Positions 1 through 64,000 of a stretch of DNA of 64,000 nt are shown here, in pieces. The notes beneath the pieces are model-generated. The model ran no database searches. It worked only from the letters and a program-made list of their open reading frames with translations, and was not told the DNA's origin. Made by a program: the position numbers and the translations under genes. The first letter of the stretch is position 1; each line of letters opens with the position of its first letter. The stretch covers positions 186,001 to 250,000 of the forward strand of contig NZ_JAPFQO010000007.1 of the NCBI RefSeq assembly GCF_026241195.1, given 5' to 3'. The DNA comes from Pontibacter anaerobius. Lineage in GTDB: Bacteria; Bacteroidota; Bacteroidia; Cytophagales; Hymenobacteraceae.

Positions 1-338
1 TTAAGCAGTTTATCCCGGATCTCCGGAAAATGATGGCCCACCTGCTGCGCCGCCTGCTCATCGGAGAGCACCCGCCGCAGCCGCACCAGCGCAGCCGCCG
101 GCAAGGCTATCCAGCGTATAAACACGTAAATAACCGCGGCCACAAACGAGAAAAGCAGGAAAGCGCGCACATACTCCGGAAAGTAGAACATGTACTCCAG
201 CAAACTATACACGATGTAAACAGAAAGCAGGAGCCCAACCGCAAAAATCCCGCCCCGCAACAGCATGTTGAGGTAGAACTTCTGTTTGAACTCCTGCAAT
301 TGATGCAGCAACTGATCGAGTGCATCGGTATGTTTCAT
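1..338 (-). CDS. DUF4175 family protein, N-terminal part (3' end beyond left edge)
   Basis: The minus strand is open from an ATG at 338 to the window edge, giving 112 residues with no stop. It starts MKHTDALDQLLHQLQEFKQK and has two membrane segments (about residues 29-47 and 56-78). The Q/E-rich stretch that follows, LSDEQAAQQVGHHFPEIRDK, matches the signature I associate with the N-terminus of DUF4175 proteins: large (about 1,100 residue) Bacteroidota membrane proteins of unknown role with later coiled coil. Only the first tenth would be present. An open frame on the other strand over the same bases has no family resemblance and is a shadow. Family identity is recognition, not a search result. 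Confidence 0.75.
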   Translation of the reverse strand, partial: MKHTDALDQLLHQLQEFKQKFYLNMLLRGGIFAVGLLLSVYIVYSLLEYMFYFPEYVRAFLLFSFVAAVIYVFIRWIALPAAALVRLRRVLSDEQAAQQVGHHFPEIRDKLL

Positions 339-477
339 GTCTTGCTATTACAAGGTTAAGGCATGGCGTCTATAGTTGTAAGTTAACCAAATCCATCTAA
401 CGCACTATACTTCAGGCGATAAAAAGTATAAATACCTATAGTATAACTGCACAGACAGCCCTTTTAGTATACCTCCC

Positions 478-1239
478 CTACTCCAGCTCCAGCAGCACCG
501 GGCAGTGGTCCGAGTGCCGGGCTTCAGTAAGTATGGCAGAACGCTTCAGGCGGTCGCGCAGGTTTTCGGTAGCCATGTTATAATCAATACGCCAGCCCAG
601 ATTTTTGTTGCGTGCGCCGGCACGGTAGCTCCACCACGTATAGTTATGCGGCTCCTGGTTAAAGTGGCGGAAGGTGTCGATAAAGCCATTCTCCACCAGC
701 TTGCTCATCCACTCGCGCTCCTCCGGCAAAAAGCCCGAGCTGTTGGCGTTGGATTTCGGGTTATGGATGTCGATGGGTTTGTGGCAGATGTTGTAATCGC
801 CGCTCACCACCAGCCCCGGCAAGGTCTGCTTCAGGTCGCCCACGTAGCCGTGGAAGTCGTCCATCCACTGAAACTTGAACTTCTGGCGCTCCTCCCCGCT
901 GGAGCCTGAAGGCATGTATACGCTCATCACCGACACATCGCCGTAATCGGCGCGCAAAACACGACCTTCCACATCGTAGCATTCTATGCCGCAGCCCACC
1001 TCTACGTGCTGCGGTTTGTCTTTAGAAAGTATAGCCACGCCGCTGTAGCCTTTCTTTACGGCCGGGTGCAGGTACACCTGGTAGCCCATATCTTCAAACA
1101 ACGCCTTGTCGAATTTAGATTCATCGGCCTTGATCTCCTGCAGGCAGAGTACATCGGGGTTAGCGGCTTTCAGCCAATCGCCGAAGCCTTTGGTAAGGGC
1201 GGCACGGATGCCGTTAACATTATAGGTAATAATTTTCAT
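478..1239 (-). CDS. xth: Exodeoxyribonuclease III (AP endonuclease)
   Basis: A DNA repair nuclease of the exonuclease III / AP endonuclease family, which cuts at abasic sites and degrades 3' ends. The 253-residue product begins MKIITYNVNGIRAAL. It carries the expected motifs: YNVNGIR near residue 6, the metal-binding Glu in LCLQEIK (Glu35), SGDYNICHKPIDIHNPK in the middle, WRIDYNMAT, and the C-terminal catalytic Asp-His pair in ARHSDHCPV. A longer frame extends 25 residues upstream but that extension is Cys-rich and unlike the family, so the ATG at 1239 is chosen. It stands alone, with about 140 gene-free bases on either side. Confidence 0.95.
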   Translation of the reverse strand: MKIITYNVNGIRAALTKGFGDWLKAANPDVLCLQEIKADESKFDKALFEDMGYQVYLHPAVKKGYSGVAILSKDKPQHVEVGCGIECYDVEGRVLRADYGDVSVMSVYMPSGSSGEERQKFKFQWMDDFHGYVGDLKQTLPGLVVSGDYNICHKPIDIHNPKSNANSSGFLPEEREWMSKLVENGFIDTFRHFNQEPHNYTWWSYRAGARNKNLGWRIDYNMATENLRDRLKRSAILTEARHSDHCPVLLELE

Positions 1240-1385
1240 GGGTGAATTTTGAGGCGCGCAGCACAGCTTACTTCTTGCCGCTGTCTTTGGTGAGCAGCAA
1301 AAGCGATGACACAAGTATAAATTTCAGGATGCTATACTTCTTCATAAGTATAAATATGCGACAAAATGTGTGCTGCGTTACTGTG

Positions 1386-1742
1386 TTAAGGTTTACGGAT
1401 ATCGTCGGCACGGTTAAAGTACTCGATCACGTGCCATTTAAGCATCTTCTCCTGCTCTTTCAGGTTGGCAAACGGGATAGATTTCACCGCCTTAAAGTGG
1501 GGCCAGCCCTCCTCGTCGCGGCCGGTGAACTCGTAATAGCCCGACTCGGCAAAGACGCGGCAGGTGGCAATGTGCATCAGGTCCTGCTTCTCCTCCTTGG
1601 TAAACTCCCGTATGCCCATGCCCAGCTCCTGAATCCCGATCAGAAAAAGTATGGCATTCATATCAGGCTTCTTGCCAAAGCGCTTCATCAGGTCGGCCCG
1701 CAGCTGCGTCCAGTTATGTTCCAGGTTGTCGCTGTCGTACAT
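1386..1742 (-). CDS. Conserved hypothetical protein, 118 aa
   Basis: I do not recognise a named family. The product is small, soluble and charged, starting MYDSDNLEHNWTQLRADLMK and ending EYFNRADDIRKP, with no signal peptide or membrane segment. The frame is open 21 residues further upstream, but that part is translated low-complexity DNA (repeated AACAATTTAAC words), so the ATG at 1742 is preferred. It lies about 100 bases downstream of the AhpD-like gene on the same strand, and the two may be co-transcribed. The composition looks like a genuine gene. Confidence 0.7.
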   Translation of the reverse strand: MYDSDNLEHNWTQLRADLMKRFGKKPDMNAILFLIGIQELGMGIREFTKEEKQDLMHIATCRVFAESGYYEFTGRDEEGWPHFKAVKSIPFANLKEQEKMLKWHVIEYFNRADDIRKP

Positions 1743-1844
1743 AAGTTGATTGTTAAATTGTTGGATTGTTAAATTGTTGATTCGCATGAAGTATAAACGC
1801 TCCATTTTGGAACCAACAATTTAACCATGTAGCCATTTAACAGT

Positions 1845-2198
1845 TTATTCTGCAGAGCCTCTCTCCTTCAGTTCCTCCCAGTACTCCACGGCGCGGCGGA
1901 AGTGCGGGATCACGATGGAGCCGCCCACTAGGTTGGCGATGGAAGATACCTCCATAAACTGCTCGTCAGTTACACCCTCTTTGTAGCACTTGCCCACGTG
2001 GTATTTAATGCAATCGTCGCAGCGCAGCACCATGGATGCCACCAAACCCAGCATTTCCTTCGTTTTCACGTCCAGGGCACCCTCCATATAGGTGTTGGTG
2101 TCGAGGTTAAAGAAACGCTTAATCACTTTATTGTCGTATGACATGATGCGCTCGTTCATGCGCGTGCGGTAGTCGTTGAATTCTTCTACTAAGCTCAT
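1845..2198 (-). CDS. Carboxymuconolactone decarboxylase / AhpD-like protein
   Basis: The 117-residue protein belongs to the carboxymuconolactone decarboxylase (AhpD-like) fold. The family's redox motif is intact: CDDC at residues 60-63 followed by His67 (RCDDCIKYHVGKC), the pattern of AhpD-type alkylhydroperoxidase partners. Members are often thiol-dependent peroxidase helpers rather than true decarboxylases, so a peroxide-defence or thiol-exchange role is likely. This is inference; the partner is not visible nearby. Length is typical for single-domain members. It is followed on the same strand by the 118-residue hypothetical protein and diverges from comF. Confidence 0.88.
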   Translation of the reverse strand: MSLVEEFNDYRTRMNERIMSYDNKVIKRFFNLDTNTYMEGALDVKTKEMLGLVASMVLRCDDCIKYHVGKCYKEGVTDEQFMEVSSIANLVGGSIVIPHFRRAVEYWEELKERGSAE

Positions 2199-2294
2199 TG
2201 TTAGGTTATTCTTGGTAAGGATGACTTTGTATTTAGTCCAAGTATAAAGTTACGGCAAAATCATCAGAATACCTTAAACCATACTTTACAGACA

Positions 2295-2981
2295 ATGTTT
2301 GAAGACCTGCTGAGTTTGCTGTTTCCTGAAACCTGCTACGCCTGTAGCGGCGCGATGGCCCACGGCGAGAAATATATCTGCACCAGTTGCAGCGTTAAAC
2401 TGCCCTACACTGATTTTCATGTGCACGGAGCTACGGAGCTGAACCCGCTGCAGCGCAGGTTCTGGGGCAAAGTGCCGGTGCGGTTCGCCTTCTCTTATTT
2501 ATACTTTATGCCGAAGGGGCGGGTGCAGCGGCTGTTGCACCGCCTCAAGTATAAAGGCGCCAAGGAACTGGGTGAGCACCTGGGGCAGCGCTACGGCTCC
2601 CTCCTCTCCGATTACCAGTACAACAGCCAGTTTAACCTGATCGTGCCGGTGCCGCTGCACAAATATAAACTGCGGCGGCGGGGCTATAACCAGGCGGAGT
2701 GCTTCGCCAAAGGCCTTTCTCAAAGTATGAACTTGCCCTGCCAGGGCCACGCGCTGCTGCGCACCACCGATACCGGCACCCAAACACGCAAGAACCGCTT
2801 TGACCGCTGGCAGAATGTGGAGCAGGTGTTTCGGGTGGCAAAACCGGAGCAGGTAAAGGGCAAGCATGTGCTGCTGGTGGATGACGTACTGACAACCGGC
2901 GCCACCCTGGAGGCCTGCGCCCGCGCCTTGCTGGAGGCAGGTGCCGCTGAGGTAAGTATCGCCACCATCGCAGCCGCCTGA
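2295..2981 (+). CDS. comF: ComF family phosphoribosyltransferase-like protein
   Basis: The 228-residue protein has the ComF layout. An N-terminal zinc-ribbon-like part has two Cys pairs (CYAC near residue 14, CTSC near residue 30). The PVPLHKYKLRRRGYNQAE segment follows near residue 117. A C-terminal phosphoribosyltransferase PRPP loop, LLVDDVLTTGAT, lies near residue 196. ComF homologues are needed for DNA uptake in naturally competent bacteria, probably in single-strand DNA handling with ComFA/PriA. Whether this organism is competent is not shown here, but it is relevant to the repeated 9-base word discussed in the findings, one copy of which lies inside this gene (about 2547). Confidence 0.92.
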   Translation: MFEDLLSLLFPETCYACSGAMAHGEKYICTSCSVKLPYTDFHVHGATELNPLQRRFWGKVPVRFAFSYLYFMPKGRVQRLLHRLKYKGAKELGEHLGQRYGSLLSDYQYNSQFNLIVPVPLHKYKLRRRGYNQAECFAKGLSQSMNLPCQGHALLRTTDTGTQTRKNRFDRWQNVEQVFRVAKPEQVKGKHVLLVDDVLTTGATLEACARALLEAGAAEVSIATIAAA

Positions 2982-4612: not shown

Positions 4613-4631
4613 AAAGTATAGTTTAAAGTAT

Positions 4632-7749: not shown

Positions 7750-10700
7750 ATGAAAAAAGTAGCCATTGGCTTTTTTATCTTTCTGGCCTTGCTGCTTGCC
7801 GCGGCGGTGCTGGTGCCTGTTATCTTTAAAGACAAGATAAAGCAGACGCTGGACCAGGAGATTGCCAAAAATATTAACGCGCAGGTTATTTACGAGACCG
7901 ACAACGTGAGCCTCTCGCTGCTGCGCGACTTCCCGAATCTGTCGTTGGGCGTGGAGAATCTTGCCGTGGTGGGCGTGGACTCCTTTGCTACCGATACCTT
8001 GGCACGCATCCCCTCCTTCCGGATGGGCCTGAACCTGTTCAGTGTGTTCGGCGATGAGCTGAAAGTGAATTCCATCACTTTGGAGAAGCCCGTTATACGC
8101 CTGTTGGTGCTTAAAAGCGGAAAAGCCAACTGGGATATTATGGTAGAAGACACCGCCGCCACTGCAGAAACCGATACCGTGGCCTCCGATTTCAACATGG
8201 CCATTACAGGCTGGGAAGTAAACGATGGCACCATTTATTACGATGACCTGAGCATTCCGTTTGGCCTTGCTGCCTATAACGTAGCGCACACCGGCAGCGG
8301 CGATTTCGAGAAAGACGTGTTCGATATGAAGTCGAAGACTACGGCCGACCGCTTTGTGATGACTTACGATGGCACCAATTACCTGGAGAACGCTCGCCTG
8401 AATGCCGACGTGACCATGGCCATGGACCTTAACCAGTCGCTTTATACTTTCAAAGACAACAGCATTCGCATCAACGAGTTTCCGTTTAAGTTTGATGGTA
8501 CCATCTTGATGCCGGAGGAGCCGATTGACTTTGACCTGACTTTCAGTGCTACCGAGACAGACTTCCGCAATGTGCTGTCGGTGGTGCCAGGTATGTACAG
8601 CGAGCAGTTTGAGGACATTAAGACAGAGGGTAAGCTGAGTTTCGACGGATATTTTAAAGGGCGGATGATCGATACCCTGATGCCGGGCTATGGCGTGGAC
8701 CTGAAGGTGATGGAAGGTATGTTTAAGTACCCTGACCTGCCGGAGGCCGCCCGCAACATTAACGTGGATATGAGCGTGGCCAGCAAAGACGGCACGCCGC
8801 AGAACACCGACATCAACATCCGCCAGTTCCACATGGACCTGGGCAAGAACCCGATAGACGCTAGGGTTTCGATAAACGGCTTGGAGACTATGAAAGTGGA
8901 TGGCAATGTGAAGGCCAACGTGGACCTGGCAGAGCTTACCAAAGTGTACCCTGTGGAGGGAATGACCCTGCGCGGCCTGCTGAAGGTGGATGCCGATGCC
9001 AAAGGCACCTACTCCGAGACAAGTATGCCGGTGATCGACGCTGACCTGAACCTGACCAACGGCTACATCAAGTCCAAAGACTTCCCTGCGCCTATCCAGA
9101 ACCTGAACATGGTGACTAACGTGCGCAACACCACCGGCAACACCGACGATACCCGCATCAACATAGAGCGCTTTAACATGAGCCTGGATGGCGAGCCACT
9201 GGAGGGCCGTATGCTGATCACGGGTATAGACAAGCCTGCTTTCGATGGCCGCATCAAAGGTATACTGGACCTGGAGAAGCTGACGAAGATCTTCCCGCAG
9301 GAGGGAATGACCGTGTCTGGCCGCATTAACGCTGACGTAACGGCCAAAGGCAAGCTAAGCGATATTGAGGAGGAGAAGTATAACAACGTAACGGCAAACG
9401 GCACCATGGCCATCAGCAACCTGAGCTATGTGAGCACCGACCTGCCGCAGGGGATGAAGATCGCCAAAGCCAACGCCAGCTTCAACAACGAGCGGGTTAA
9501 CCTGCAGAACATGAGCGGCTACCTGGGCAAGAGCGATTTCCAGGCAAACGGTACTGTATCTAACTACATCGGCTACGCATTAGATGATAACCAGTCGCTG
9601 CGCGGTAACTTTAACCTTAGCTCTAATAAGTTCGACGTGAACGAGTGGATGGTGGACGAAGCCGGCGCTCCGGCCGAAGAGACGCAAGAAGGCGTGGTGG
9701 AAGTGCCGAAAAACCTGGACCTGGCCCTGAACATAGATGCCAAGCAGGTACTGTACTCCAACCTGAAGCTGAACAACGTGAGCGGCCAGGTGCAGGTGAA
9801 GGACCAGGTTGCCAGGCTGAACAAGGTAACCTTTAACACCCTGGGCGGAACCTTTGCCACCAGCGGCAGCTACAACACACAGAACCTGCAGCACCCGCTC
9901 TTCGACATGAAGCTGGACATACAGGATCTGGGCTTTAGGGAGGCTTTTAATGCCTTTACCACGGTGCAGGCCTTTGCCCCTATCGCGAAGGTGCTGGAGG
10001 GTAAGTTCTCTACTAGTTTTGCCTTTGCCGGCGAACTGGGCCAGGATATGGTGCCGCTTTTCCAGACGCTGGATGGGAAAGGCGTGATAAAGGTATTGCG
10101 AGCAGCGGTGGCCAATGTGCCGATCGTGGACAAGATCAGTAGCCTGACCCATTTTGAGGAGCTGCGCAGCTTCGTGATCGAGAACAAGATGATTGATGCA
10201 CAGATTGTGGACGGCAAGCTGTTGGTGAAGCCGTTTAACCTGAAGGTTGGCGATATCGACATGTCGGTGGGGGGCAGCACGGCAGCAGACGGCAACATAG
10301 ATTATACTACGGCCCTGAACGTGCCTACCGGTAAGGTGGGGCAGCAGCTTGGCTCTAGCCTGGCTGGCCTGCTGGGCGGAAACCAAAGCCTGGTAAACAC
10401 AGAGCGCGTTACCCTGAAACTGAATGTGGGTGGCACCTACAACGATCCGCGCGTGTCGTTGGCGGGAGGCTCTGTAAAAGAGAAAGCCACGGATATAGTG
10501 GAGAATGTGGTGCAGGAAAAGCTGAATGTGGTGAAGCAGAAGGCCGATGAGCGCAAGCAGCAACTACAGGACAGTGTAACCAATGAGCTGAACCGCAGAA
10601 AGCTGGAGGCAGAGCGCAAGGCCCAGGAGGAGTTGGAGAAGAAGCGACTGGAGGCTGAGCAGCAGATAAAGAAACAGGCTACCGACAAAGTAGGCGGTTT

Positions 10701-10761
10701 CCTGAAGCAGATCACCAAGCCGAAAACCACTACGCAGCCGGACACCACGAAAAATCAATAA
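7750..10761 (+). CDS. AsmA-like protein, 1003 aa
   Basis: A very large AsmA-family protein. It has a single N-terminal membrane anchor (about residues 4-26, GFFIFLALLLAAAVLVPVIF) followed by a long repetitive beta-rich body typical of the AsmA/TamB/VPS13-like bridge proteins thought to help lipid or outer-membrane homeostasis in Gram-negatives. The N-terminal RDFPNLSLGVENLAV and repeated 'EGMTLRG / EGMTVSGRINADV' segments mark repeated units. The last 90 residues are a charged, K/E/Q-rich probable coiled coil (QVQ-KADERKQQLQ region to the end), an unusual C-terminal extension. It is a single-gene unit, diverging from sprF-gldJ and closed by a strong terminator at 10805. Confidence 0.85.
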   Translation: MKKVAIGFFIFLALLLAAAVLVPVIFKDKIKQTLDQEIAKNINAQVIYETDNVSLSLLRDFPNLSLGVENLAVVGVDSFATDTLARIPSFRMGLNLFSVFGDELKVNSITLEKPVIRLLVLKSGKANWDIMVEDTAATAETDTVASDFNMAITGWEVNDGTIYYDDLSIPFGLAAYNVAHTGSGDFEKDVFDMKSKTTADRFVMTYDGTNYLENARLNADVTMAMDLNQSLYTFKDNSIRINEFPFKFDGTILMPEEPIDFDLTFSATETDFRNVLSVVPGMYSEQFEDIKTEGKLSFDGYFKGRMIDTLMPGYGVDLKVMEGMFKYPDLPEAARNINVDMSVASKDGTPQNTDINIRQFHMDLGKNPIDARVSINGLETMKVDGNVKANVDLAELTKVYPVEGMTLRGLLKVDADAKGTYSETSMPVIDADLNLTNGYIKSKDFPAPIQNLNMVTNVRNTTGNTDDTRINIERFNMSLDGEPLEGRMLITGIDKPAFDGRIKGILDLEKLTKIFPQEGMTVSGRINADVTAKGKLSDIEEEKYNNVTANGTMAISNLSYVSTDLPQGMKIAKANASFNNERVNLQNMSGYLGKSDFQANGTVSNYIGYALDDNQSLRGNFNLSSNKFDVNEWMVDEAGAPAEETQEGVVEVPKNLDLALNIDAKQVLYSNLKLNNVSGQVQVKDQVARLNKVTFNTLGGTFATSGSYNTQNLQHPLFDMKLDIQDLGFREAFNAFTTVQAFAPIAKVLEGKFSTSFAFAGELGQDMVPLFQTLDGKGVIKVLRAAVANVPIVDKISSLTHFEELRSFVIENKMIDAQIVDGKLLVKPFNLKVGDIDMSVGGSTAADGNIDYTTALNVPTGKVGQQLGSSLAGLLGGNQSLVNTERVTLKLNVGGTYNDPRVSLAGGSVKEKATDIVENVVQEKLNVVKQKADERKQQLQDSVTNELNRRKLEAERKAQEELEKKRLEAEQQIKKQATDKVGGFLKQITKPKTTTQPDTTKNQ

Positions 10762-10804
10762 TTTTTTTGATGTAAAAACCGCTGGGAAATCAGCGTTTTA
10801 GCAC

Positions 10805-10838
10805 AAATCCAGCAGAAGAAGATGCTTCTGCTGGATTT
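10805..10838 (+). terminator. Terminator after the AsmA-like gene
   Basis: A perfect 14-base stem (AAATCCAGCAGAAG / CTTCTGCTGGATTT) with a six-base loop, followed by a T-rich run. Confidence 0.9.
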
Positions 10839-10939
10839 TATTTTTTAAATACTATATATTAGAGTGCAACTTTTAACCGTTTAGGAGTGTAAAAGAAGCT
10901 TTCCTGAAAGCATAGTGTTTTAAACCAATGCAATTTTAA

Positions 10940-11731
10940 ATGATGAAAAAGAAATTTTTTCTCCCTTTAATGCTTTGTGGGCTGATTGGATTCAGCTCAT
11001 GCGATAGCAACGAAGACAGTGGTACGGCCCGCATGGAAGTGCGCATGACTGATGCACCTGGCGATTATGACGAAGTAAACGTTGAGATCGAGTCGGTGCA
11101 GATTCACACGGAAGAAGGCGATACTGAAGAAGGCTGGGTTACGCTGGATGAGATCCATCCGGGTGTGTACAACCTGCTGGACTTCGCGAATGGCAAGGAT
11201 ACGCTGCTGGCCAGCGCTGAACTGCCTGTAGGCCACATTTCCCAGATCAGGCTTATACTCGGTAACGAAAACTCTGTGAAGCTGAAGAGTGGCGAGGTGA
11301 TAGACCTGAAAACGCCAAGCGGCCAGACATCCGGTGTAAAGCTGCAGCTGAACGCTGACCTGCAGGACGATGTGACCTATATGGTACTGCTTGACTTTGA
11401 CGCAGCCAGATCGGTTGTGCCGAAGGGCAACGGCGGCTATAACCTGAAGCCGGTGATCCGCACCATTACACAGGCTATTGCCGGTGGTATTAAAGGTAGC
11501 GTAACGCCAGCAGAGTATGAGCCAGCCATCTACGTTATCTCAGCTGCCAACGACACGATCGGTGGTTACGCCAGCGATAACGGCGAATTCCTGATCAAAG
11601 GCGTACCGGCGGGCACTTACAGAGTGGAGTTCATCACGGAGTATGGCGAGCACAATAAAACTGTAGAAAACGTAAGCGTGTCTCAGGACCAGATTAAAGA
11701 CATGGGTGTGGTAATGTTGCCGCAGGAATAG
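10940..11731 (+). CDS. DUF4382 lipoprotein with carboxypeptidase-regulatory-like domain
   Basis: A 263-residue lipoprotein: signal peptide with lipobox FSSCDSNE (Cys about 21), then a DUF4382 domain whose start ARMEVRMTDAPGDYDEVNVEIESVQIH is diagnostic, and YNLLDFANGKDTLL. The C-terminal third, beginning GGIKGSVTPAEYEPAIYVI and containing GEFLIKGVPAGTYRVEF, is the beta-sandwich found in carboxypeptidase-regulatory-like domains. The function is unknown; it is a cell-surface or periplasmic lipoprotein. Two ATGs (10940, 10943) could be the start. It is a single-gene unit with a strong terminator downstream. Confidence 0.85.
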   Translation: MMKKKFFLPLMLCGLIGFSSCDSNEDSGTARMEVRMTDAPGDYDEVNVEIESVQIHTEEGDTEEGWVTLDEIHPGVYNLLDFANGKDTLLASAELPVGHISQIRLILGNENSVKLKSGEVIDLKTPSGQTSGVKLQLNADLQDDVTYMVLLDFDAARSVVPKGNGGYNLKPVIRTITQAIAGGIKGSVTPAEYEPAIYVISAANDTIGGYASDNGEFLIKGVPAGTYRVEFITEYGEHNKTVENVSVSQDQIKDMGVVMLPQE

Positions 11732-19540: not shown

Positions 19541-19976
19541 GCTATCGAACTGATCCCAGTCTTTCCGTTGAGCGCCTTTGGAGTTTTTCCGGTGCCCGTG
19601 AGGGCATTGCGACGCAGGAGCAAAGGAAAAGGTCCCAGCGCGATGCAGGAAGACGAGCCCTCCCGGGCTGGAGGGAGCCAAAGCCAGAGATGCAACTGTA
19701 GGTTTGTAGGACTGAGGATCAGCAGTAGCTAATAAGGTTAGCTTGGTTCAAGCTAAAGGAAGCAGAGGCGATGGAAGTATAAAGTACGGATTGCGCGGAT
19801 TAGGAAATCCGCGGCTGAAAGGTTCCGGACAAGGATGTCCGGAACAGCGGAAGTATAAACTGGCAAGTATAAAAGTATAGCCAAAGTATAAAGTATGGCT
19901 TTTCAAGCCAGTTGAGTCAGAAACGCAACATCATGTAAAGACACAAGTGTAAATACTTGCGCCAGAAGGGGGATAA
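19541..19976 (+). repeat. Multi-hairpin dispersed element, copy A
   Basis: About 435 bases, repeated at 28366-28804. The 5' part is a well-conserved GC-rich block starting CTATCGAACTGATCCCAGTC and including AGCCCTCCCGGGCTGGAGGG. The 3' part is a row of short hairpins: GCGGATT-AAATCCGC (19794-19812), GTTCCGGACA-TGTCCGGAAC (19822-19845), TGGCTT-AAGCCA (19895-19910), GTTG-CAAC (19911-19929), CAAGT-ACTTG (19943-19958), ending GCGCCAGAAGGGG. Strand is arbitrary. No transposase gene or target-site duplication is visible. Confidence 0.85.
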
Positions 19977-24626: not shown

Positions 24627-26006
24627 ATGGCTAAGATAAAAACATCATACTTCTGCCAGAACTGCGGTGCCCAGTCGGCCAAATGGATTGGCAAGTGCCC
24701 TGCCTGCGGCGAGTGGAATACTTACGTAGAGGAGGTGGTACAGCGCGAGGAGGTAACCCCGACCACCGCCTGGAAAGTTGGCAGCAGCACGGCGCAGGTG
24801 GCCAACAAACCCAAGCCCATTGCCGACATCAGGTATCAGGAGCAGCAGCGCGTAGTTACGCAGGACCAGGAACTGAACCGTGTGCTGGGAGGCGGCATTG
24901 TGCCGGGCTCCATGGTGCTGATAGGTGGTGAGCCGGGCATAGGTAAAAGTACGCTGATGCTGCAGATTGCCCTTAGCCTGCAGGGGCTGAAAGTGCTGTA
25001 CGTGAGTGGCGAGGAGAGTGAGCAGCAGATAAAAATGCGCGCCGAGCGCCTCATGGCTCAAGCCTCCGACTGCTTTATACTTACAGAAACCGGCACGCAG
25101 AATATCTTCAAGCAAATAGAGCTGGTGCGGCCGCAGGTGCTCATCATCGACTCCATCCAAACCCTCCACTCCTCTTTTATTGAGGCTGGGGCGGGCAGTG
25201 TGAGTCAGGTGCGCGAGTGTACTGCCGAGCTGCTGAAGTTTGCCAAGGAGAGCGGCACGCCTGTTTTCCTGATCGGCCATATTACCAAAGAAGGCAACTT
25301 GGCCGGACCCAAAATCCTGGAGCACATGGTAGATACGGTGCTGCAGTTCGAGGGCGACCGCCACATGACGTACCGCATCCTGCGCACCACTAAAAACCGC
25401 TTTGGCTCTACTTCTGAGCTGGGTATATACGAGATGATGGGCTCAGGCCTGCGCGAGGTGAGCAACCCGTCGGAGATACTGATCTCGCAGCGCGAGGATG
25501 CTTTTAGCGGCATAAGTATAGGGGCCACGCTGGAGGGCAACCGCCCCTTGCTGATTGAGGTGCAGAGCCTGGTGAGCCCGGCTACGTATGGCACCCCGCA
25601 GCGCACCAGCACCGGTTTCGATGCCAAGCGCCTGAACATGCTGCTGGCCGTGTTGGAGAAGCGCGGCGGCTACCGCTTGGGTGCCCAGGACGTGTTTCTG
25701 AATATTGCCGGTGGCCTGAAGGTAGAAGACCCTGCCCTGGACCTGGCCGTATGCGCTTCCATCCTGTCGTCTTTCGAGGACATGCCCATCTCTAACACCG
25801 CCTGCTTTGCCGCCGAAGTTGGCCTGGGAGGAGAGGTGCGCGCCGTAAACCGCGTGGAGAACCGCATAACAGAGGCTGAAAAGCTAGGGTTTACCGACAT
25901 CTATATCTCAAAGTATAACAAGAAAGGCGTTGACCTAAGTAAATTTTCCATCAATATACACGCTTACGGTCGTCTGGAGGAGGTTTTCGCCAGTTTGTTT
26001 GGGTAA
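24627..26006 (+). CDS. radA: DNA repair protein RadA
   Basis: The bacterial RadA/Sms recombination ATPase, which drives branch migration during recombinational repair. The 459-residue product has the N-terminal zinc finger CQNC...CPAC (Cys10-Cys27), a RecA-like core with Walker A GGEPGIGKST (about residue 99), the RadA-specific KNRFG motif (about residue 253), and the C-terminal Lon-protease-like domain starting around FSGISIGATLEGNRPLLIEVQ. The length is normal. It starts at the ATG at 24627, preceded by a low-complexity CATTCACACATTC leader. In competent bacteria RadA also acts on incoming single-stranded DNA. Confidence 0.97.
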   Translation: MAKIKTSYFCQNCGAQSAKWIGKCPACGEWNTYVEEVVQREEVTPTTAWKVGSSTAQVANKPKPIADIRYQEQQRVVTQDQELNRVLGGGIVPGSMVLIGGEPGIGKSTLMLQIALSLQGLKVLYVSGEESEQQIKMRAERLMAQASDCFILTETGTQNIFKQIELVRPQVLIIDSIQTLHSSFIEAGAGSVSQVRECTAELLKFAKESGTPVFLIGHITKEGNLAGPKILEHMVDTVLQFEGDRHMTYRILRTTKNRFGSTSELGIYEMMGSGLREVSNPSEILISQREDAFSGISIGATLEGNRPLLIEVQSLVSPATYGTPQRTSTGFDAKRLNMLLAVLEKRGGYRLGAQDVFLNIAGGLKVEDPALDLAVCASILSSFEDMPISNTACFAAEVGLGGEVRAVNRVENRITEAEKLGFTDIYISKYNKKGVDLSKFSINIHAYGRLEEVFASLFG

Positions 26007-48221: not shown

Positions 48222-48242
48222 GGAAGTATAAAGTATAAGTAT

Positions 48243-48286
48243 AAAATGACAACAGCCACTCTTTTCAGAGTGGCTGTTGTCATTTT
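48243..48286. terminator. Very strong bidirectional terminator
   Basis: A perfect 19-base stem, AAAATGACAACAGCCACTC / GAGTGGCTGTTGTCATTTT, with a six-base loop, between convergent genes. Three overlapping AAGTATA words lie just upstream of it. Confidence 0.93.
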
Positions 48287-52665: not shown

Positions 52666-55587
52666 ATGAATGTTTATACCACGCAGCCTTTTCAGGTGGT
52701 CTACTCGCTCTTCGAGCACGAATACCTGGGTTACCTGTTTGAGTCATTTGTGGTACAGGTAAACTCCAAAGGGCAACTTACTCTGCAGCATCAGAACATC
52801 TCGGCAAAAAACGCGGATGAGTTTGCGTCGCGCCTTGATGCGGAGGATTTTAAGCTGATCCAACTCATAGACCAGATACAGCAGGACGCTGTGCTGAAGC
52901 GGTTTTCCCCGAAAAAGAAGCTCTCGCCCGCCGATTTCTTCCTGAAAGTATACGACCCCGAGAAGGGCGACAAGGCGCTGCAGGAAACCATCAGCCACTA
53001 TGTGCAGGGCCACATGGGCAAGATTCTGGAGCTGCTGCGCCCCGGCAAGATGACCTTTATTATGGGCAAGGACGGGGAGCCGACCTGGCGAAAGATCCGC
53101 ATTGCGCCGGAGCGTGCCACGGTGCTGTTCCATTTCAGGCGCAACCAAGATAATACCCACTATTTCCCGACGGTAAAGTATGGCGGCGAGAAGCTGGAGT
53201 TCCAATACAAAAATGCCACGCTGATCTGCCATGAACCTGCCTGGCTGATGCTGAACGACACCGTGTACAGCTTTGAAAAGAACGTGGATGGCAAGAAGCT
53301 GCAGCCTTTCCTGAATAAGAAGTTTATCGTGGTGCCACGCTCGGTGGAGGAAAACTACTACCAGAAGTTTGTGGCGCCGCTGGTGGAGCAGTTTGACGTG
53401 TACGCCAAAGGCTTCGACATACGGGCGGAGAAGTTTGTGCCCAGCCCATACCTGACCTTTTCGGAGATTGCCGCTGAAGCTCCTGCCGCTTTTGCCACCA
53501 GAAACGAGGCGCCTGCACAGGAAAGCGGAAAGATCCTCTTCGACCTCTCGTTTAAGTATGGCGACCACATGGTGGAGACGCGGGAGGCCAAGCGTGTTAG
53601 CGTGAGCGTGGAGAAAACCCCCGAGTCCTATGTGTTCCACAAGCTGATCCGAGATGTGAGCACCGAGAAGAAGTATGTGAAAGAGCTGAACAAGCGTGCG
53701 CTGGAGGTGAAGAACGGCTACGTGGTACTGGAGAAGAGCACGGCGTTTGCATGGCTCAACAGTAACCTGCAGGGGCTGGAGGAGATGGGCTTTAAGGTGC
53801 AGCAGAGCCGGGGCAACGGCAAGAACTACTTTATTGGCGAGATAACGCTGGATGTTGGCATCACGGAGAAGAACGACTGGTTCGATATTTACGGCACCGT
53901 GCGTTTTGGTGAGTTCACGATCCCGTTCATCAGGCTTAAAAACCACATCCTTACTAAAAATAACGAGTTTGTGCTGCCTAACGGGCAGGTTGCCATTATT
54001 CCGGATGAGTGGTTTACGCAGTACATAGAATTGTTTGCTTTTGCCGAGGGAGAGGAGCACCTGACGCTGAAGAAGCACCACATGGCGCTGGTAAACGACC
54101 TGCAGAACGGAAACCTGGCCACCGTTACCATGAGCCGAAAGCTTGAAAAGCTGCGCGAGTTCGATACTATTGAAGACCAGCCGCTGCCGGACGGATTTGT
54201 GGGTGAGTTGCGCCCTTACCAAAAAGCCGGCTACAATTGGCTGCATTTTGTCCAGAACTACAAGTTTGGGGGTTGCCTGGCCGATGACATGGGCTTGGGC
54301 AAAACCGTGCAAACGCTGGCCATGCTGCAGCACCGCAAGGAGAACGGGGCGGAGTCGGCCTCGCTGCTGGTTATGCCTACCTCGCTGGTGTACAACTGGA
54401 TGAATGAGGCCCAGAAGTTTACGCCAAACCTGCGCATCCTCAACTATACCGGCACCTACCGCGACAAAAACGTGGAGCTGTTTTCGGACTACGACGTTAT
54501 CCTGACTTCGTACGGCATCGTGCGCCTGGATGCGGACCTGCTGCAGAGCTATTATTTCGATTACATTATCCTGGACGAGTCGCAGGCCATCAAAAACCCA
54601 GACTCCAATACCTCGCGCTCGGTTAGGTCGCTCAAGTCGCGGCACAGGCTTATACTTACGGGCACACCGGTGGAGAACAGCACCATGGATTTGTGGTCGC
54701 AGATGTCGTTTATCAACCCGGGCCTGTTGGGCAACCAGCACTTCTTCCGCAACGAGTTCCTGAAGCCGATCGAGAAGGAGAAGGATGAGCAGAAAACCCG
54801 GCGGCTGCACGCGCTCATTAAGCCGTTTATACTTCGCAGGCACAAATCGCAGGTGGCCAAAGAGCTGCCGGCAAAGATAGAGCAGACCTCTTTCTGTAAA
54901 ATGACCGAGGAGCAGGAGCATGCCTACGAGGAGACAAAATCATACTACCGCAACAAGATCCTGACGAGCCTGGAGGAGAACGGGCCGGGCAACACCCAAT
55001 TTATGCTCTTGCAGGGCCTGACCAAGCTGCGGCAGATCGCTAACCACCCCCTGATGACGGACCCGGGCTACGAAGGTGAGTCTGGTAAGCTGAAAGAGGT
55101 GCTGCGGATGACGAAGAATATAGTAGGCAAAGGGCATAAGGTTCTTATATTCAGCCAGTTCGTGAAGCACCTCGAGATTATCCGTAAGGCACTTAACGAG
55201 AAGGAGATAAGCTATACTTACTTGGATGGCAACACCAAGAACCGCCAGGAGCAGGTAGAGCGTTTCCAGACAGACGAGAGCATACAGGTGTTCCTGATCT
55301 CACTGAAAGCCGGGGGCGTGGGCCTGAACCTGACAGCCGCCGACTACGTGTTCATACTTGACCCCTGGTGGAACCCGGCAGTGGAGGCCCAGGCCGTGGA
55401 CCGCGCGCACCGCATCGGGCAGCAGAACACGGTGTTCACCTACAAGTTCATCACGAAGGATACCGTAGAGGAGAAGATACTGGCGCTGCAGAATCGTAAG
55501 ATCCAGCTCGTTACCGACCTCATCAGCACAGACGAAACCGTTATCAAGAGCCTCACCAAAGAGGATATCGATAGCCTTTTGAGCTAA
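52666..55587 (+). CDS. SNF2-family DEAD/DEAH-box helicase
   Basis: A 973-residue Swi2/Snf2 ATPase. An N-terminal 500-residue region unlike other domains is followed by the helicase: Q-like RPYQKAGYNWL, Walker A CLADDMGLGKTVQTLAML (about residue 541), DEAH-box variant YIILDESQAIKNP (about residue 635), and LILTGTPVENSTMDLWSQ. The C-terminal RecA domain has LIFSQFVKHLEIIRKAL, ISLKAGGVGLNLTAADYVF and DPWWNPAVEAQAVDRAHRIG. Bacterial members (HepA/RapA-like) remodel protein-DNA or RNA polymerase complexes; the role here is unknown. A strong terminator follows. Several large opposite-strand open frames overlap it and are shadows. Confidence 0.9.
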   Translation: MNVYTTQPFQVVYSLFEHEYLGYLFESFVVQVNSKGQLTLQHQNISAKNADEFASRLDAEDFKLIQLIDQIQQDAVLKRFSPKKKLSPADFFLKVYDPEKGDKALQETISHYVQGHMGKILELLRPGKMTFIMGKDGEPTWRKIRIAPERATVLFHFRRNQDNTHYFPTVKYGGEKLEFQYKNATLICHEPAWLMLNDTVYSFEKNVDGKKLQPFLNKKFIVVPRSVEENYYQKFVAPLVEQFDVYAKGFDIRAEKFVPSPYLTFSEIAAEAPAAFATRNEAPAQESGKILFDLSFKYGDHMVETREAKRVSVSVEKTPESYVFHKLIRDVSTEKKYVKELNKRALEVKNGYVVLEKSTAFAWLNSNLQGLEEMGFKVQQSRGNGKNYFIGEITLDVGITEKNDWFDIYGTVRFGEFTIPFIRLKNHILTKNNEFVLPNGQVAIIPDEWFTQYIELFAFAEGEEHLTLKKHHMALVNDLQNGNLATVTMSRKLEKLREFDTIEDQPLPDGFVGELRPYQKAGYNWLHFVQNYKFGGCLADDMGLGKTVQTLAMLQHRKENGAESASLLVMPTSLVYNWMNEAQKFTPNLRILNYTGTYRDKNVELFSDYDVILTSYGIVRLDADLLQSYYFDYIILDESQAIKNPDSNTSRSVRSLKSRHRLILTGTPVENSTMDLWSQMSFINPGLLGNQHFFRNEFLKPIEKEKDEQKTRRLHALIKPFILRRHKSQVAKELPAKIEQTSFCKMTEEQEHAYEETKSYYRNKILTSLEENGPGNTQFMLLQGLTKLRQIANHPLMTDPGYEGESGKLKEVLRMTKNIVGKGHKVLIFSQFVKHLEIIRKALNEKEISYTYLDGNTKNRQEQVERFQTDESIQVFLISLKAGGVGLNLTAADYVFILDPWWNPAVEAQAVDRAHRIGQQNTVFTYKFITKDTVEEKILALQNRKIQLVTDLISTDETVIKSLTKEDIDSLLS

Positions 55588-56323: not shown

Positions 56324-57826
56324 ATGAGGAAAGCAGCCGTTATCGGGGCAGGGATAGGAGGCATTGCCACAGCCGTGCGTCTGGCCGTAAAGGGCTATGA
56401 GGTAACGGTGCTGGAGGCCAACCCTACCTTTGGCGGTAAGATGCACGAATTCTGGCTGGGCGGCTATCGGTTCGATGCCGGCCCCTCGCTGTTTACGCTG
56501 CCGCACCTCGTGGACGAGCTGTTCACGCTGGCCGGGCGCACGCCCTCCGACTACTTTCGCTACACCCGCCTCGACCCGATAACGCACTATTTCTGGCCCG
56601 ACGGAAGCCACGTGAAAGCCTATTCCGACGCCGGAAGGTTTGCGCAGGAGGCCGAGCAGCAGCTGGGCGTGCCGAAGCAGGCGGTGCAGGAGGCGCTGGC
56701 CAAAAGCAGCAGGCTCTACAAAGGCACTGCAGACACGTTTCTGCGGAAGTCGCTGCATAAACTGGATACGTACCTGAGCCCGGATGTGCTGAAGGCGCTC
56801 AGTTGCCTCTCAGACCTTGGCCTGTCCACCACCATGCATGAGGCCAACGCCAGCCAGTTCTCCGACCCGCGCTTTGTGCAGCTGCTCGACAGGTTTGCCA
56901 CCTATAACGGCTCTGACCCGTATCAGGCCCCTGGCACCCTCAACATCATTCCGCACCTCGAGCACAACATCGGCGCTTTTTACCCGGAAGGCGGCATCTA
57001 TGCCATCGCGGCGAGTTTGGTGAAACTGGCTGAGAAATTGGGCGTTGCGTTTAAGTATAATGAGCAGGTAGAGCGCATCATCACTGAAAATAACAAAGCC
57101 ACAGGCGTAGAAACCAGCAGCGGCAAGTATAAAGCCGATGTGGTGGTGAGCAATATGGATGTGGTGCCAACCTACCGCAGACTCCTCCCCGATCAGCCGG
57201 CACCGGAGAAAACATTGCAGCAGCCGCGTTCCAGCTCCGCACTCATCTTTTACTGGGGCATTAAGAGGGAGTTCCCGCAGTTGCACGTGCACAATATCTT
57301 CTTCAGCCAGGATTATAAAACGGAGTTCGAGCATATCTTCAAGTATAAAACCGTCAGCCAAGACCCGACCGTGTACATCAACATCACTTCCAAGGCAGAC
57401 CCGCAGGATGCGCCCGCAGGCAGTGAGAACTGGTTTGTGATGGTGAACGTGCCGCACAACCAGGGGCAGGACTGGCAGCAGTTAACAACAAATACCCGGC
57501 AGGCGGTGCTGCAAAAGTTAAGCAACATGCTGGGTGTAAGTATAGAGCCGCTTATCCAGGAAGAGCAGGTGCTGGACCCGCTGCTGATCGAAGGTCGCAC
57601 CTCGTCGTTTGGCGGGGCCTTGTACGGCAGCAGCTCCAACAACCGCATGGCCGCTTTCCTGCGCCACCCTAACTTCAGCTCCAGGCTCAAAGGCTTGTAC
57701 TTTTGCGGCGGCAGCGTGCACCCCGGTGGTGGCATTCCGCTGTGCCTGCTCTCGGCCAAAATCGTGGGCGAGCTGGTGCCAGCCGTTGCCCCCTTACCTG
57801 CTAAACCCCGTAAACGCCATGCCTGA
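56324..57826 (+). CDS. crtD: CrtD-type carotenoid desaturase (phytoene desaturase family)
   Basis: A 500-residue FAD-dependent desaturase of the CrtI/CrtD/CrtN family. The N-terminal Rossmann motif is VIGAGIGGIATAVRLAVKG, with YRFDAGPSLFTLPHLV shortly after. PEGGIYAIAASLVKLAEKLG is in the middle and the C-terminal GLYFCGGSVHPGGGIPLCLL is the family's FAD-end signature. Its pairing with the CruF hydratase suggests a 3,4-desaturase acting on 1-hydroxylated carotenoids, as in the saproxanthin/flexixanthin pathway, rather than the first phytoene step. The last eight bases overlap the cruF start. A true crtI may lie elsewhere. Confidence 0.82.
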   Translation: MRKAAVIGAGIGGIATAVRLAVKGYEVTVLEANPTFGGKMHEFWLGGYRFDAGPSLFTLPHLVDELFTLAGRTPSDYFRYTRLDPITHYFWPDGSHVKAYSDAGRFAQEAEQQLGVPKQAVQEALAKSSRLYKGTADTFLRKSLHKLDTYLSPDVLKALSCLSDLGLSTTMHEANASQFSDPRFVQLLDRFATYNGSDPYQAPGTLNIIPHLEHNIGAFYPEGGIYAIAASLVKLAEKLGVAFKYNEQVERIITENNKATGVETSSGKYKADVVVSNMDVVPTYRRLLPDQPAPEKTLQQPRSSSALIFYWGIKREFPQLHVHNIFFSQDYKTEFEHIFKYKTVSQDPTVYINITSKADPQDAPAGSENWFVMVNVPHNQGQDWQQLTTNTRQAVLQKLSNMLGVSIEPLIQEEQVLDPLLIEGRTSSFGGALYGSSSNNRMAAFLRHPNFSSRLKGLYFCGGSVHPGGGIPLCLLSAKIVGELVPAVAPLPAKPRKRHA

Positions 57827-58499
57827 CGCCAAAGCCGCCCCTACGCTGGCACCTGTTGCCACCAAGTATAAAAAGTATGCGCTGCCGGTGGCCGTGGCCA
57901 TACTTGTCATCTTCCATGCGGTAGGTTTCTGGGGCTTGCTGTTCAGCGGCAGGCCGGAGTATTTCCAGCGGCTAACCCCCATGAACCTGCTGCTCACCAA
58001 CACGCTACTGCTTGCCTTCCACCGCCGCTGGAGCACGACGTTTATACTTTTTGCCGCAGTGGTGTTCTCCGTTGGGTTTTTCTCAGAGGTGGTGGGGGTG
58101 CATACGGGGCTGCTGTTCGGGGACTATGCTTATGGCGCCGCGCTGGGCTTTAAAATATGGAGCGTGCCCGTTCTCATTGGCCTGAACTGGCTGATGCTGG
58201 TGTACAGCGCCGGCCATATCAGCAATCTTACGCGCCTGCCCTGGCCAGCCAAGGCTATACTTGGCGCCCTGCTCATGGTACTGCTCGACTACTTTATTGA
58301 GCCCGTGGCCATGGCTTTTGACTTTTGGAGCTGGCAGGGTGGTCACATCCCGCTTTCCAACTACGTGGGTTGGTTTGTGGTGGCGCTGGGGCTGCAGGTA
58401 TACTTTCAGCGGGCAGCCATTGCTAAAGAAAACAGGCTGGCGCCTTATATCTACCTGGTGCAACTCCTTTTTTTCGTGGGCATCCTCAGCTTGCTGTAG
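57819..58499 (+). CDS. cruF: Carotenoid 1',2'-hydratase CruF
   Basis: A 226-residue polytopic membrane enzyme (about seven helices) of the CruF family, adding water to the end double bond of acyclic carotenoid ends (1'-hydroxylation). FFSEVVGVHTGLLFGDYAYG is a family hallmark and DYFIEPVAMAFDFWSWQGGH another. The start ATG at 57819 begins MPDAKAAPTLAPVATKYKKY and overlaps the crtD stop by eight bases, so the genes are translationally coupled. With CrtD it leads to monocyclic or acyclic hydroxylated carotenoids, the orange-red pigments typical of Pontibacter and Hymenobacter. Confidence 0.88.
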   Translation: MPDAKAAPTLAPVATKYKKYALPVAVAILVIFHAVGFWGLLFSGRPEYFQRLTPMNLLLTNTLLLAFHRRWSTTFILFAAVVFSVGFFSEVVGVHTGLLFGDYAYGAALGFKIWSVPVLIGLNWLMLVYSAGHISNLTRLPWPAKAILGALLMVLLDYFIEPVAMAFDFWSWQGGHIPLSNYVGWFVVALGLQVYFQRAAIAKENRLAPYIYLVQLLFFVGILSLL

Positions 58500-59571: not shown

Positions 59572-59579
59572 GTTTATAC

Positions 59580-61276: not shown

Positions 61277-61300
61277 GCATTCGCCAAGTATAAATCAAAG

Positions 61301-61342
61301 GGATGCAGTGAAGCAAGTATAGCGGCGCTGCATCCTTTTTTT
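61301..61342 (+). terminator. Terminator of prfA
   Basis: GGATGCAG (61301-61308) and CTGCATCC (61328-61335), a 19-base loop, then seven T. The loop contains an AAGTATA word. Confidence 0.85.
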
Positions 61343-61424
61343 ATTGTTGCTGGTTAAATTGCTAAATTGCTGTACTTCATAAGAGTGTCCATACTTCCAA
61401 TAACCAATAACGAACAACTAAACT

Positions 61425-62795: not shown

Positions 62796-62964
62796 CAATC
62801 AATGCTGAATGAGTGAATGTGTGAAGAAGTTGAAGTGAACTTTACGCTTATACTCATACTTGCACAGGTAGGGTGAAGCCAAACAGGAAGTATAAAAAAG
62901 GCTGATTTGAACCCTCAAAAATAAAATCACTCATTCACACATCCTCTCATTCAAAATTATACTT

Positions 62965-63396
62965 ATGTGGTTTCAGAAAGAGATAAGGCTACCGGCCGTT
63001 AAGCGCGGCTTTCATTTAATAACAGACCTGCTGGAGGCGCAGCTGCCGGAACTGGAGGAGGTTTATGTGGGGCTGGCGCATATTTTCATTAAACACACCT
63101 CTGCCAGCCTCACCATTAACGAAAATGCCGACCCCACTGTGCGGCAGGACTTTGAGAGCCACTTCAACCACATGGTGCCGGAAAACCAACCCTACTACCG
63201 CCATACCCTGGAAGGCTCCGATGACATGCCTGCGCATTTAAAGGCCGCCATACTTGGCACCTCTGTTACGGTGCCCATCCGAAACGGGGAACTGAACCTC
63301 GGAACTTGGCAAGGCATCTACCTCTGCGAGCACCGCGACAACGCCTCCAAACGCACTATAGTAGTTACGCTGCAGGGTGAGGGAATGCATGGGTAA
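62965..63396 (+). CDS. YjbQ/UPF0047 family protein (thiamine phosphate synthase-like)
   Basis: A 143-residue protein of the secondary thiamine-phosphate synthase (YjbQ) family. LAHIFIKHTSASLTINENAD is the family signature, followed by ENQPYYRHTLEGSDDMPAHL, SVTVPIRNGELNLGTWQGIY and CEHRDNASKRTIVV. The Escherichia YjbQ has been reported to have weak thiamine phosphate synthase activity; the physiological role is unclear. The length is normal. It is preceded by a low-complexity ATTCACACATCC leader. Confidence 0.92.
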   Translation: MWFQKEIRLPAVKRGFHLITDLLEAQLPELEEVYVGLAHIFIKHTSASLTINENADPTVRQDFESHFNHMVPENQPYYRHTLEGSDDMPAHLKAAILGTSVTVPIRNGELNLGTWQGIYLCEHRDNASKRTIVVTLQGEGMHG

Positions 63397-63510
63397 TGGT
63401 TTAGTTATTAGATGTTGGTTGTTGGGGGAAATTATAAAAAAGCATAAACTCCTACTTCCTTAACTCACTCTGATAACGAATAATTAACAACTAGTAACCA
63501 TTCACTACCC

Positions 63511-64000
63511 TTACCGCACAACACTTACCCGCCTGATCTCAGTGCCATTAGTGCTAACCAGGCGCATGAAGTATACGCCAGGCGGCAGGTGGCGTACATC
63601 CAGTTGCAGTGTGCGGCTGCGGGCCTCCGCTGTAAGTATGGTTTTGCCTACGCTGTTTATAAGCTCCACGTGTCGCACAAGTATACGCGCAGGCTGTTCA
63701 ATGTACAGATAATCCGAGGTTGGATTCGGGTATACCGTCAGGTCGCTGACCGTTACGTGCACAAAGTCCTCCTTTACCTCGCTGTCGGTTACAGTGCCAT
63801 TGCTCACCGTTAGCTTTACATCGTACTGGCCAGGCTGCGGATAGGTAACGGTGGGGTTCTGCTGCGTAGAAGTAGCCGGTATGCCTCCCTTAAACTCCCA
63901 GAGCCACTCAGTAGCCCGAACGCCTTCCGGTGTGGCAGCAAACTGTATACTACTCCCAGCAACTACCAGTGTGTCGCTTTCCTGCGCCAAACCAAAATCA
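63511..64000 (-). CDS. PKD-domain protein with T9SS type A sorting domain (5' end missing)
   Basis: The minus-strand frame runs to the right edge without a start: the codons before the first in-window Met read DFGLAQESD and continue outward. Visible content is a PKD domain (SSIQFAATPEGVRATEWLWE, YPQPGQYDVKLTVSNG) of about 80 residues and a type A sorting signal (VYPNPTSDYLYIEQPA, ending RVSVVR). FGLAQESD could be the end of a signal peptide or an internal sequence, so whether the protein is small or large cannot be decided here. It is the third type IX secretion cargo of the window. Confidence 0.8.
   Translation of the reverse strand, partial: DFGLAQESDTLVVAGSSIQFAATPEGVRATEWLWEFKGGIPATSTQQNPTVTYPQPGQYDVKLTVSNGTVTDSEVKEDFVHVTVSDLTVYPNPTSDYLYIEQPARILVRHVELINSVGKTILTAEARSRTLQLDVRHLPPGVYFMRLVSTNGTEIRRVSVVR

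Follow-up and report, generated by a model that had tools for sequence, protein, structure and literature searches.

To our knowledge, dense DNA uptake sequences are known only from the Proteobacteria, in the Neisseriaceae and the Pasteurellaceae. ComP, which figures in the former family, is a type IV pilin. The DNA uptake sequences (DUS) of the Neisseriaceae occur in dialects and are bound by ComP (PMC3630211), extended AT-rich flanks accompany the uptake signal sequences (USS) of the Pasteurellaceae (PMC1939737), and in both families the words are read, or predicted to be read, by type IV pilus proteins (PMC12616744; for type IV filaments in general see PMC6668835). In the Bacteroidota, transformation of Riemerella is described as pilus-free, with no pilus homologues detected, and as requiring ComEC, DprA, ComF, RecA and a periplasmic helix-hairpin-helix protein (PMC8459023). 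Riemerella columbina is reported to prefer its own DNA, and the same source raises the question of uptake words in Riemerella and Flavobacterium and leaves it open, beside an A/T-rich k-mer table (PMC7965970). Among the open-licence papers listed in the literature search, none describes an uptake sequence in Pontibacter or other Bacteroidota. The subject here is the dispersed word AAGTATA (complement TATACTT), often extended to AAGTATAAA, in a 64-kb stretch of the Pontibacter anaerobius genome (contig NZ_JAPFQO010000007.1, positions 186,001 to 250,000; hereafter the window). As a real, genome-wide and clade-specific word with dialects it appears to behave like a DNA uptake sequence, and AAGTATA(A)(A) is probably one dialect of a genus-wide family of such sequences (probability about 0.68).

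Like the DUS of the Neisseriaceae, the Pontibacter word is short, occurs in thousands of copies, forms clade-congruent dialects and has some relatives without an obvious word; it differs from them in sequence and in phylum. With the USS, whose nine-base core is AAGTGCGGT, it shares a similar length and a comparable density, while its flanks, unlike those of the USS, are almost without information. With Riemerella it shares the phylum and the presence of comEC, dprA and a helix-hairpin-helix gene.

The window contains 137 copies of AAGTATA (88 on the plus and 49 on the minus strand), against a mean of 5.81 and a maximum of 11 in dinucleotide-shuffled sequences, and 59 copies of AAGTATAAA against a shuffled mean of 0.59. 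Words with at least eight copies were also ranked against first- and third-order Markov expectations; for every length from 6 through 11 bases the word at the top was a piece or an extension of the AAGTATA word, and the variant AAGTATG/CATACTT was likewise enriched (56 copies against 13.2 expected at order 3). An earlier note on this DNA, made from the letters alone, had described a strong excess of AAGTATA, with 22 exact copies in the first 10 kb and a common variant AAGTATG; the excess stands, the count of 22 is exact and the variant is indeed common. Its example coordinates lie within two bases of the true ones, and four of them (54652, 54827, 57052 and 57343) should read 54651, 54828, 57053 and 57341. 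Under a null model that preserves each protein and the codon usage of each gene, the 44 genes of the window hold 68 copies against 10.0 +/- 2.8 expected (100 shuffles), and 319 genes from 464 kb of the genome hold 526 against 73.0 +/- 8.7 (30 shuffles); the word read backwards, which served as the mirror control, is found 17 times in the latter set against 29.8 expected. Across the whole 4.65-Mb genome (G000; G numbers denote genomes and L numbers loci), 3,135 copies of AAGTATAAA occur (1,659 forward and 1,476 reverse), compared with 34 of its mirror word (14 forward and 20 reverse). The over-representation of AAGTATA is real and genome-wide.

Among 879 copies in 464 kb, the word tends to be preceded by A (0.42) and followed by two further A residues (0.60 and 0.45), while the other flanking positions deviate by at most 0.02 bits, with slight excesses of A; G is tolerated at the seventh position of the word. 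Overall there are approximately 1.9 copies per kb, the figure being 4.43 in intergenic DNA and 1.45 in genes. As had been proposed, the word occurs on both strands, both within and between genes: 572 of the 879 copies fall in coding sequence (302 sense and 270 antisense) and 307 are intergenic. Its most frequent coding readings are Ile-Leu (128), Lys-Tyr (122) and Ser-Ile (113), the contexts that the earlier note had named. The contribution to ATA codon usage that it ascribed to the word is small, with 229 of 1,797 ATA codons lying inside a copy. An origin of the words as remnants of a small mobile repeat, such as a repetitive extragenic palindromic element (REP), a miniature inverted-repeat transposable element (MITE) or a simple repeat, would fit some local clusters, and tandem arrays of word-like units do occur in other genomes of the family. 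It is highly improbable, however, as the 879 copies share no common sequence beyond approximately 10 bases, 526 copies lie within coding sequence and the main dialects are dispersed.

The family was surveyed in 204 genomes, 50 of them from Pontibacter, with five other genera represented. More than 1,000 copies of AAGTATAAA are present in 23 of the 204 genomes, all of them Pontibacter, and the remaining 27 Pontibacter genomes have at most 572. In the five other genera of the family, counts lie close to those of the mirror word, genus g2 having about twice as many. Many of the AAGTATA-poor Pontibacter genomes are rich in a related word instead. Dialect labels were set by hand from word rates in 20 to 40 kb per genome (64 kb for G000), drawn from 20 kb around radA in 49 relatives and 20 kb around comEC in 20 genomes. 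On this basis 19 of the 50 Pontibacter genomes use AAGTATA, 12 AGGTATA and five AACTATA, three are mixed, and 11 have none of the three words. P. populi (G163) belongs to the AACTATA dialect and Pontibacter sp. HSC-36F09 (G188) to the AGGTATA dialect, while P. ummariensis (G193) and P. beigongshangensis (G153) have none. The genomes with none of these words are also larger (mean 5.71 against 4.59 Mb), a difference confounded with clade.

AGGTATA(G) is the word of a single clade of 12 genomes and AACTATA(G) that of five genomes. AAGTATA is spread over several clades and is therefore probably the ancestral dialect. The dialects are congruent with phylogeny: on a midpoint-rooted tree of seven radA-locus proteins (2,472 columns, with some weak nodes) the five labels require six changes, against 26.8 when shuffled and a minimum of 20 in 1,000 shuffles. 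Three genomes carry two words, the rates of AAGTATAR and AACTATAR per 10 kb being 14.8 and 19.8 in G191, 22 and 10.8 in G158, and 22.5 and 10.5 in G195. The last of these became mixed independently, its sister G178 having rates of 17 and 0, and G160, classed as AACTATA, still shows 12 and 31. Two of the 11 genomes that lack all three words offer weak candidates for further dialects: TATATAG, which is dispersed in G181, and GGTATAAA, which is weak and present in few copies in G187. As a dialect of G179, GAGGTAGA was rejected, eight of its 12 copies in the stretch examined lying in tandem arrays. A single alignment register common to all words is insecure across genera and is not claimed.

The persistence of individual sites was followed across 13 radA-locus genes aligned by codon, where the fraction of words intact at the same columns was compared with that of all 7-mers of the same genes; the genome pairs in this comparison are related and thus not independent. 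From G000 to close relatives that use the word, 0.61 of the sites are kept against a background of 0.30, so that the orthologous-site comparison proposed in the earlier note favours conservation. The corresponding values are 0.51 against 0.19 towards distant AAGTATA genomes and 0.40 against 0.23 from the G000 clade towards G148, G172 and G147. Sites are likewise kept among AGGTATA genomes (0.71 against 0.29) and among AACTATA genomes (0.55 against 0.29), and conservation within dialects amounts to 1.8 to 2.6 times that of other 7-mers. Between dialects it drops below background from G000 to genomes without a word (0.09 against 0.15), from the AAGTATA to the AGGTATA clade (0.09 against 0.16) and from AACTATA to AAGTATA genomes (0.02 against 0.16), but not from the AAGTATA sites of five genomes (0.18 against 0.16) or of the mixed genomes (0.24 against 0.24) to AACTATA genomes. 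Given the high ratios within dialects and the values near or below background between them, a site persists more often than background only between genomes that share its word.

Replacement of one word by another in place is also elevated, the switch from AAGTATA to AGGTATA occurring at 2.4 to 3.3 times, and that to AACTATA at 6.1 to 8.5 times, the background for the respective substitution, compared with 1.0 and 0.8 times in genomes without a word. Only a minority of sites switch in this way. None of the 13 AACTATA words of G195 lies at the position of an AAGTATA in G178, suggesting that the words of a new dialect mostly arise at other places.

Plasmids are markedly poorer in the word than the chromosomes of the same cells. 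The plasmid of P. akesuensis (G148) carries 34 AAGTATA in 116 kb (6,108 in the whole genome), that of P. actiniarum (G147) 80 in 204 kb (4,114) and that of P. kalidii (G165) 20 in 74 kb (8,861), corresponding to 0.29, 0.39 and 0.27 per kb on the plasmids against 1.29, 0.85 and 1.8 per kb in the rest of the respective genomes, a 2.2- to 6.6-fold deficit. One alternative is that the word is created or protected by mutation, repair or a methylation-coupled process with sequence specificity. An origin of this type has been suggested for the cyanobacterial HIP1, likewise a very dense and dispersed chromosomal word. Dispersal on both strands and clade-specific dialects are compatible with such a process, as is the residue on the plasmids, where the word remains two to four times as frequent as its mirror control. 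A host-wide mutational bias would act on both replicons, however, and it fits the word-poor plasmids poorly. Retention of sites below background towards the no-word and AGGTATA genomes also argues against it, as does the non-palindromic nature of AAGTATAAA, which sets it apart from the palindromic HIP1 (PMC1939737). An explanation of this kind is decidedly unlikely.

The word also avoids constrained genes. The poorest region, between 180 and 210 kb of contig C1, has 26 AAGTAT[AG] on either strand against an average of 78. This region looked phage-like at first, but the Pfam families found there speak against a prophage (PHROGs were also searched). They identify the genes for the RNA polymerase beta and alpha subunits (rpoB, rpoA), elongation factor G (fusA) and SecY (secY), on account of which the scarcity is read as constraint excluding the word; the small genes among them are presumably ribosomal proteins, judging from their neighbours.

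Near-balanced strand totals conceal a modest polarity, which emerged when strand was checked against GC skew. A 260-kb stretch with positive skew in 12 of its 13 20-kb blocks has the strands at 253:219. The other 204 kb stand at 208:199, made up of 120:150 in the part with negative skew and 88:49 in the window, whose skew is positive. Splitting the 464 kb by the sign of the skew, a division chosen after the data had been seen, places 491 against 388 copies (56% of 879) on the locally G-rich strand. For 131 10-kb blocks of word-using genomes, each holding at least four words, the Spearman coefficient of the word's strand is 0.31 with GC skew and 0.28 with coding strand. The p-values are unreliable due to the relatedness of the genomes, and a joint regression does not clearly separate the two correlates. 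Between co-directional genes of G000, 106 words are in the sense and 54 in the antisense orientation, while AGGTATA within genes shows 141 sense against 202 antisense copies, and several genomes have unequal strands at the radA locus (44:11 in G171, for instance).

A polarity of this extent would be compatible with a Chi-like site or another chromosome-maintenance site under host selection, such as an FtsK orienting polar sequence (KOPS) or the target of a nucleoid or segregation protein. Chi, like the Pontibacter word, is an over-represented chromosomal word of similar length, and Chi sites might also be conserved within a dialect and rarer on plasmids. The polarity of the Pontibacter word is, however, weaker than that of KOPS and of Chi (approximately 75% for E. 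coli Chi). At 1.9 per kb the Pontibacter word is far denser than Chi, of which E. coli has 1,008 copies in about 4.64 Mb (PMC1939737). Unlike Chi, it also switches dialect within the genus, its core having changed at least twice, which is odd for the site of a core enzyme, and approximately 30 kb that include essential genes have few copies. A maintenance site is thus unlikely, although the polarity found on checking raised its probability slightly and slightly lowered that of an uptake sequence.

Clade-specific dialects, conservation of sites within the same dialect, rarity on plasmids and scarcity in constrained genes together make an uptake-like sequence the best supported of the origins offered in the earlier note, segregation fitting less well and repeats or host-wide mutation fitting poorly. 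We infer competence of Pontibacter, an effect of the word on uptake, a receptor that reads it and a molecular drive. The surface machinery of a competent cell would bind or import DNA bearing the word better than other DNA, and the imported fragments would recombine with the homologous stretch of the chromosome. Mutations that create the word would spread in this manner and those that destroy it would be repaired, so that the word would accumulate wherever constraint allows. A shift in the specificity of the receptor would let a new dialect rise as the old one decays, and loss of uptake would leave the words to erode.

The genes expected of such a system are in part present. The genes comEC and dprA and a gene for a ComEA-like protein of approximately 315 residues with tandem helix-hairpin-helix motifs were matched in all 50 Pontibacter genomes, 48 of which show no stop within the matched domains; in G184 the reading frame of comEC spans only 561 residues, with no stop inside it. 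A search for the type IV pilus ATPase, the only pilus family searched, gave weak partial matches to PF00437 (type II/IV secretion ATPases) across the 50 genomes. Three of these matches barely pass the cut-off of 24.9 bits, the best scoring 25.9. By this ATPase family search, no type IV pilus motor is detected in Pontibacter and, consequently, a receptor of the ComP type is not expected, and the Pontibacter word is not filed with the words read through ComP and type IV pili. ComF and RadA, whose presence the earlier note had brought forward in favour of uptake, lend no support, radA being matched in all 50 genomes including those without a word.

Uptake sequences occur in excess in genome-maintenance genes. 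The word-richness of comEC is reminiscent of this: nine copies of the gene (from eight single-dialect genomes and G158; loci L146-L164) have 2.85 to 5.23 home words per kb, the same loci overall having 2.0 to 3.25 per kb.

Genomes with broken genes were compared for word density. In G166, comEC (at L165, around 9000-11097), dprA and the tandem helix-hairpin-helix gene all contain stops, the latter two having been located by search only. At its radA locus 12 of the 13 tested genes pass the length filter, the thirteenth was not found there, and of four further genomes compared three gave no match to it. With 1,270 copies of AAGTATAAA in 5.5 Mb this genome has the lowest density of its clade, that of G147 being only slightly higher. 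The clearest signature of decay is that of P. actiniarum (G147), in which 0.62 of its own words are found in the others and 0.33 of the others' words in it. Taken together, the broken-gene genomes are suggestive and do not form a clean dose-response.

Several observations weigh against an uptake sequence. All 11 genomes without the main words retain comEC, dprA and the helix-hairpin-helix gene free of stops, and the machinery thus does not predict the word. The asymmetry in G166 is weak (0.59 of its own words in the others, 0.52 of theirs in it), and G186, with comEC and dprA broken, still has a high density of AGGTATA. G147 shows its pattern of decay despite having no stop in any of the three genes; another component, perhaps the receptor, may have been lost there. 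The candidate receptors, proteins with DUF5689 or choice-of-anchor J domains, fail to track the words across the 50 genomes. No uptake or transformation data for Pontibacter were found in the open-licence literature searched, where the one paper that mentions both the genus and natural transformation deals with LexA. The two- to fourfold excess on the plasmids (mirror counts of 17 in P. akesuensis, 28 in P. actiniarum and five in P. kalidii), for which occasional exchange with the chromosome would suffice as a source, and the modest polarity described above count on the same side.

Of the rejected receptor candidates, both of them surface-protein domains suggested by Riemerella, whose failure to follow the words sets Pontibacter apart from that genus, DUF5689 (PF18942) was matched in 22 of the 50 genomes, with no match in G000. 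Where its surroundings were read, at three loci, it adjoins genes that resemble susC and susD in their translations, judged by eye with no family search. The choice-of-anchor J domain (NF038128) was matched in 34 of the 50 genomes, among them all 12 of the AGGTATA clade, and in the three loci where its own frame was read (of six within L166-L195) it forms part of a large protein with the appearance, again by eye, of a secreted DNA-degrading enzyme of the endonuclease/exonuclease/phosphatase type. Inspection of the comEC neighbourhood by eye in 20 genomes revealed no gene that tracks the word.

Should the word be an uptake sequence, sequence-gated DNA uptake would have evolved more than once, here in a genus in which no pilus motor was detected. 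The word would then offer a handle on the outer-membrane DNA importer of the Bacteroidota, the receptor gene of which should change with the dialect, and the mixed genomes would allow the replacement of dialects to be studied. It could also help to explain poor transformation by foreign DNA, if such is seen. On balance it seems somewhat probable that Pontibacter, a member of the Bacteroidota, recognises its own DNA by means of a receptor unrelated to type IV pilins, with several dialects in the one genus and replacement in progress in G191, G158, G160 and, independently, G195. Hymenobacter, Solirubrum and Echinicola have private words of their own, which suggest repeated origin across the Cytophagales. 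The copies singled out in the window and two context genes are given in Table 1.

Table 1. Copies of the word and context genes in the window
Feature	Position	Strand	Basis
AAGTATA / TATACTT, dispersed, 137 exact copies, 59 of them AAGTATAAA	1..64000	both	word counts, Markov models, codon-matched null
AAGTATA copy	406..412	-	word search
AAGTATAAA copy paired in inverted orientation with AAGTATA at 406-412 (minus strand)	424..432	+	word search
AAGTATAAA copy	1346..1354	+	word search
AAGTATAAA copy within ComF-like gene	2547..2555	+	word search
AAGTATA copy within large open reading frame 7750-10761	9376..9382	+	word search
Cluster of four AAGTATA (19851, 19865, 19873, 19884)	19851..19892	+	word search
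AAGTATAAA copy within radA	25074..25082	-	word search
Cluster of three AAGTATA (48224, 48231, 48237)	48224..48245	+	word search
AAGTATAAA copy (54827 in the earlier note)	54826..54834	-	word search
AAGTATAAA copy (57343 in the earlier note)	57341..57349	+	word search
AAGTATAAA copy	58041..58049	-	word search
ComF-like phosphoribosyltransferase gene	2295..2981	+	Pfam Pribosyltran only; ComF label from the earlier note
RadA-like gene, orthologous anchor, matched in 50/50 Pontibacter genomes	24627..26006	+	Pfam AAA_25 and ChlI; label from the earlier note

Beyond Pontibacter, 79 of 80 named radA loci were long enough to be scanned for private words, at about 20 kb each, so that these are single-locus data. 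In order-2 simulations, 15 for each locus, z stayed at or below 6.7, and real Pontibacter loci without a word reach 7.1, which makes values near 9 borderline. The sensitivity of the scan is low as well: G147 and G166, both bearers of AAGTATA, score only 6.6 and 7.8. Dispersed words with z above 10 were found in Solirubrum puertoriconensis (CCTAGGT), in Hymenobacter wooponensis (CTAGGCCA) and in two of the four named Pontibacter, and Fibrella forsythiae and H. jeollabukensis reach z of about 9. Among 19 genomes of genus g4, G023 has ACCTAGGT (z 18) and G029 GCTAGGT (z 9); the private words of Solirubrum, H. wooponensis and the two g4 genomes lie at L265, L279, L226 and L201. Echinicola arenosa (L262) and E. 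pacifica (L296) have a dispersed TGTGGATA(A) at 19 and 15 places in 21 kb, with approximately one expected and z above 10. This word equals the complement of the classical DnaA box TTATCCACA, and it may for that reason be something other than an uptake word.

The case for GGGTAGGG as a dialect of G012 is weakened by the 17 of its 29 copies that lie in tandem arrays, although the dispersed remainder still gives a z of 9.6. More than 700 copies of GGGTAGGG occur in 14 of 120 g4 genomes, where uneven strands raise the suspicion of arrays, and these counts were not used as evidence of a dialect; in the 20 kb read from G027 no word of the GGGTAGGG type was present. Tandem arrays of word-like units were also observed at L200 (9320-9407) and at L161 (1149-1188 and 1604-1627), the units being the five-base GGGTA and the eight-base AGAGGTAG.

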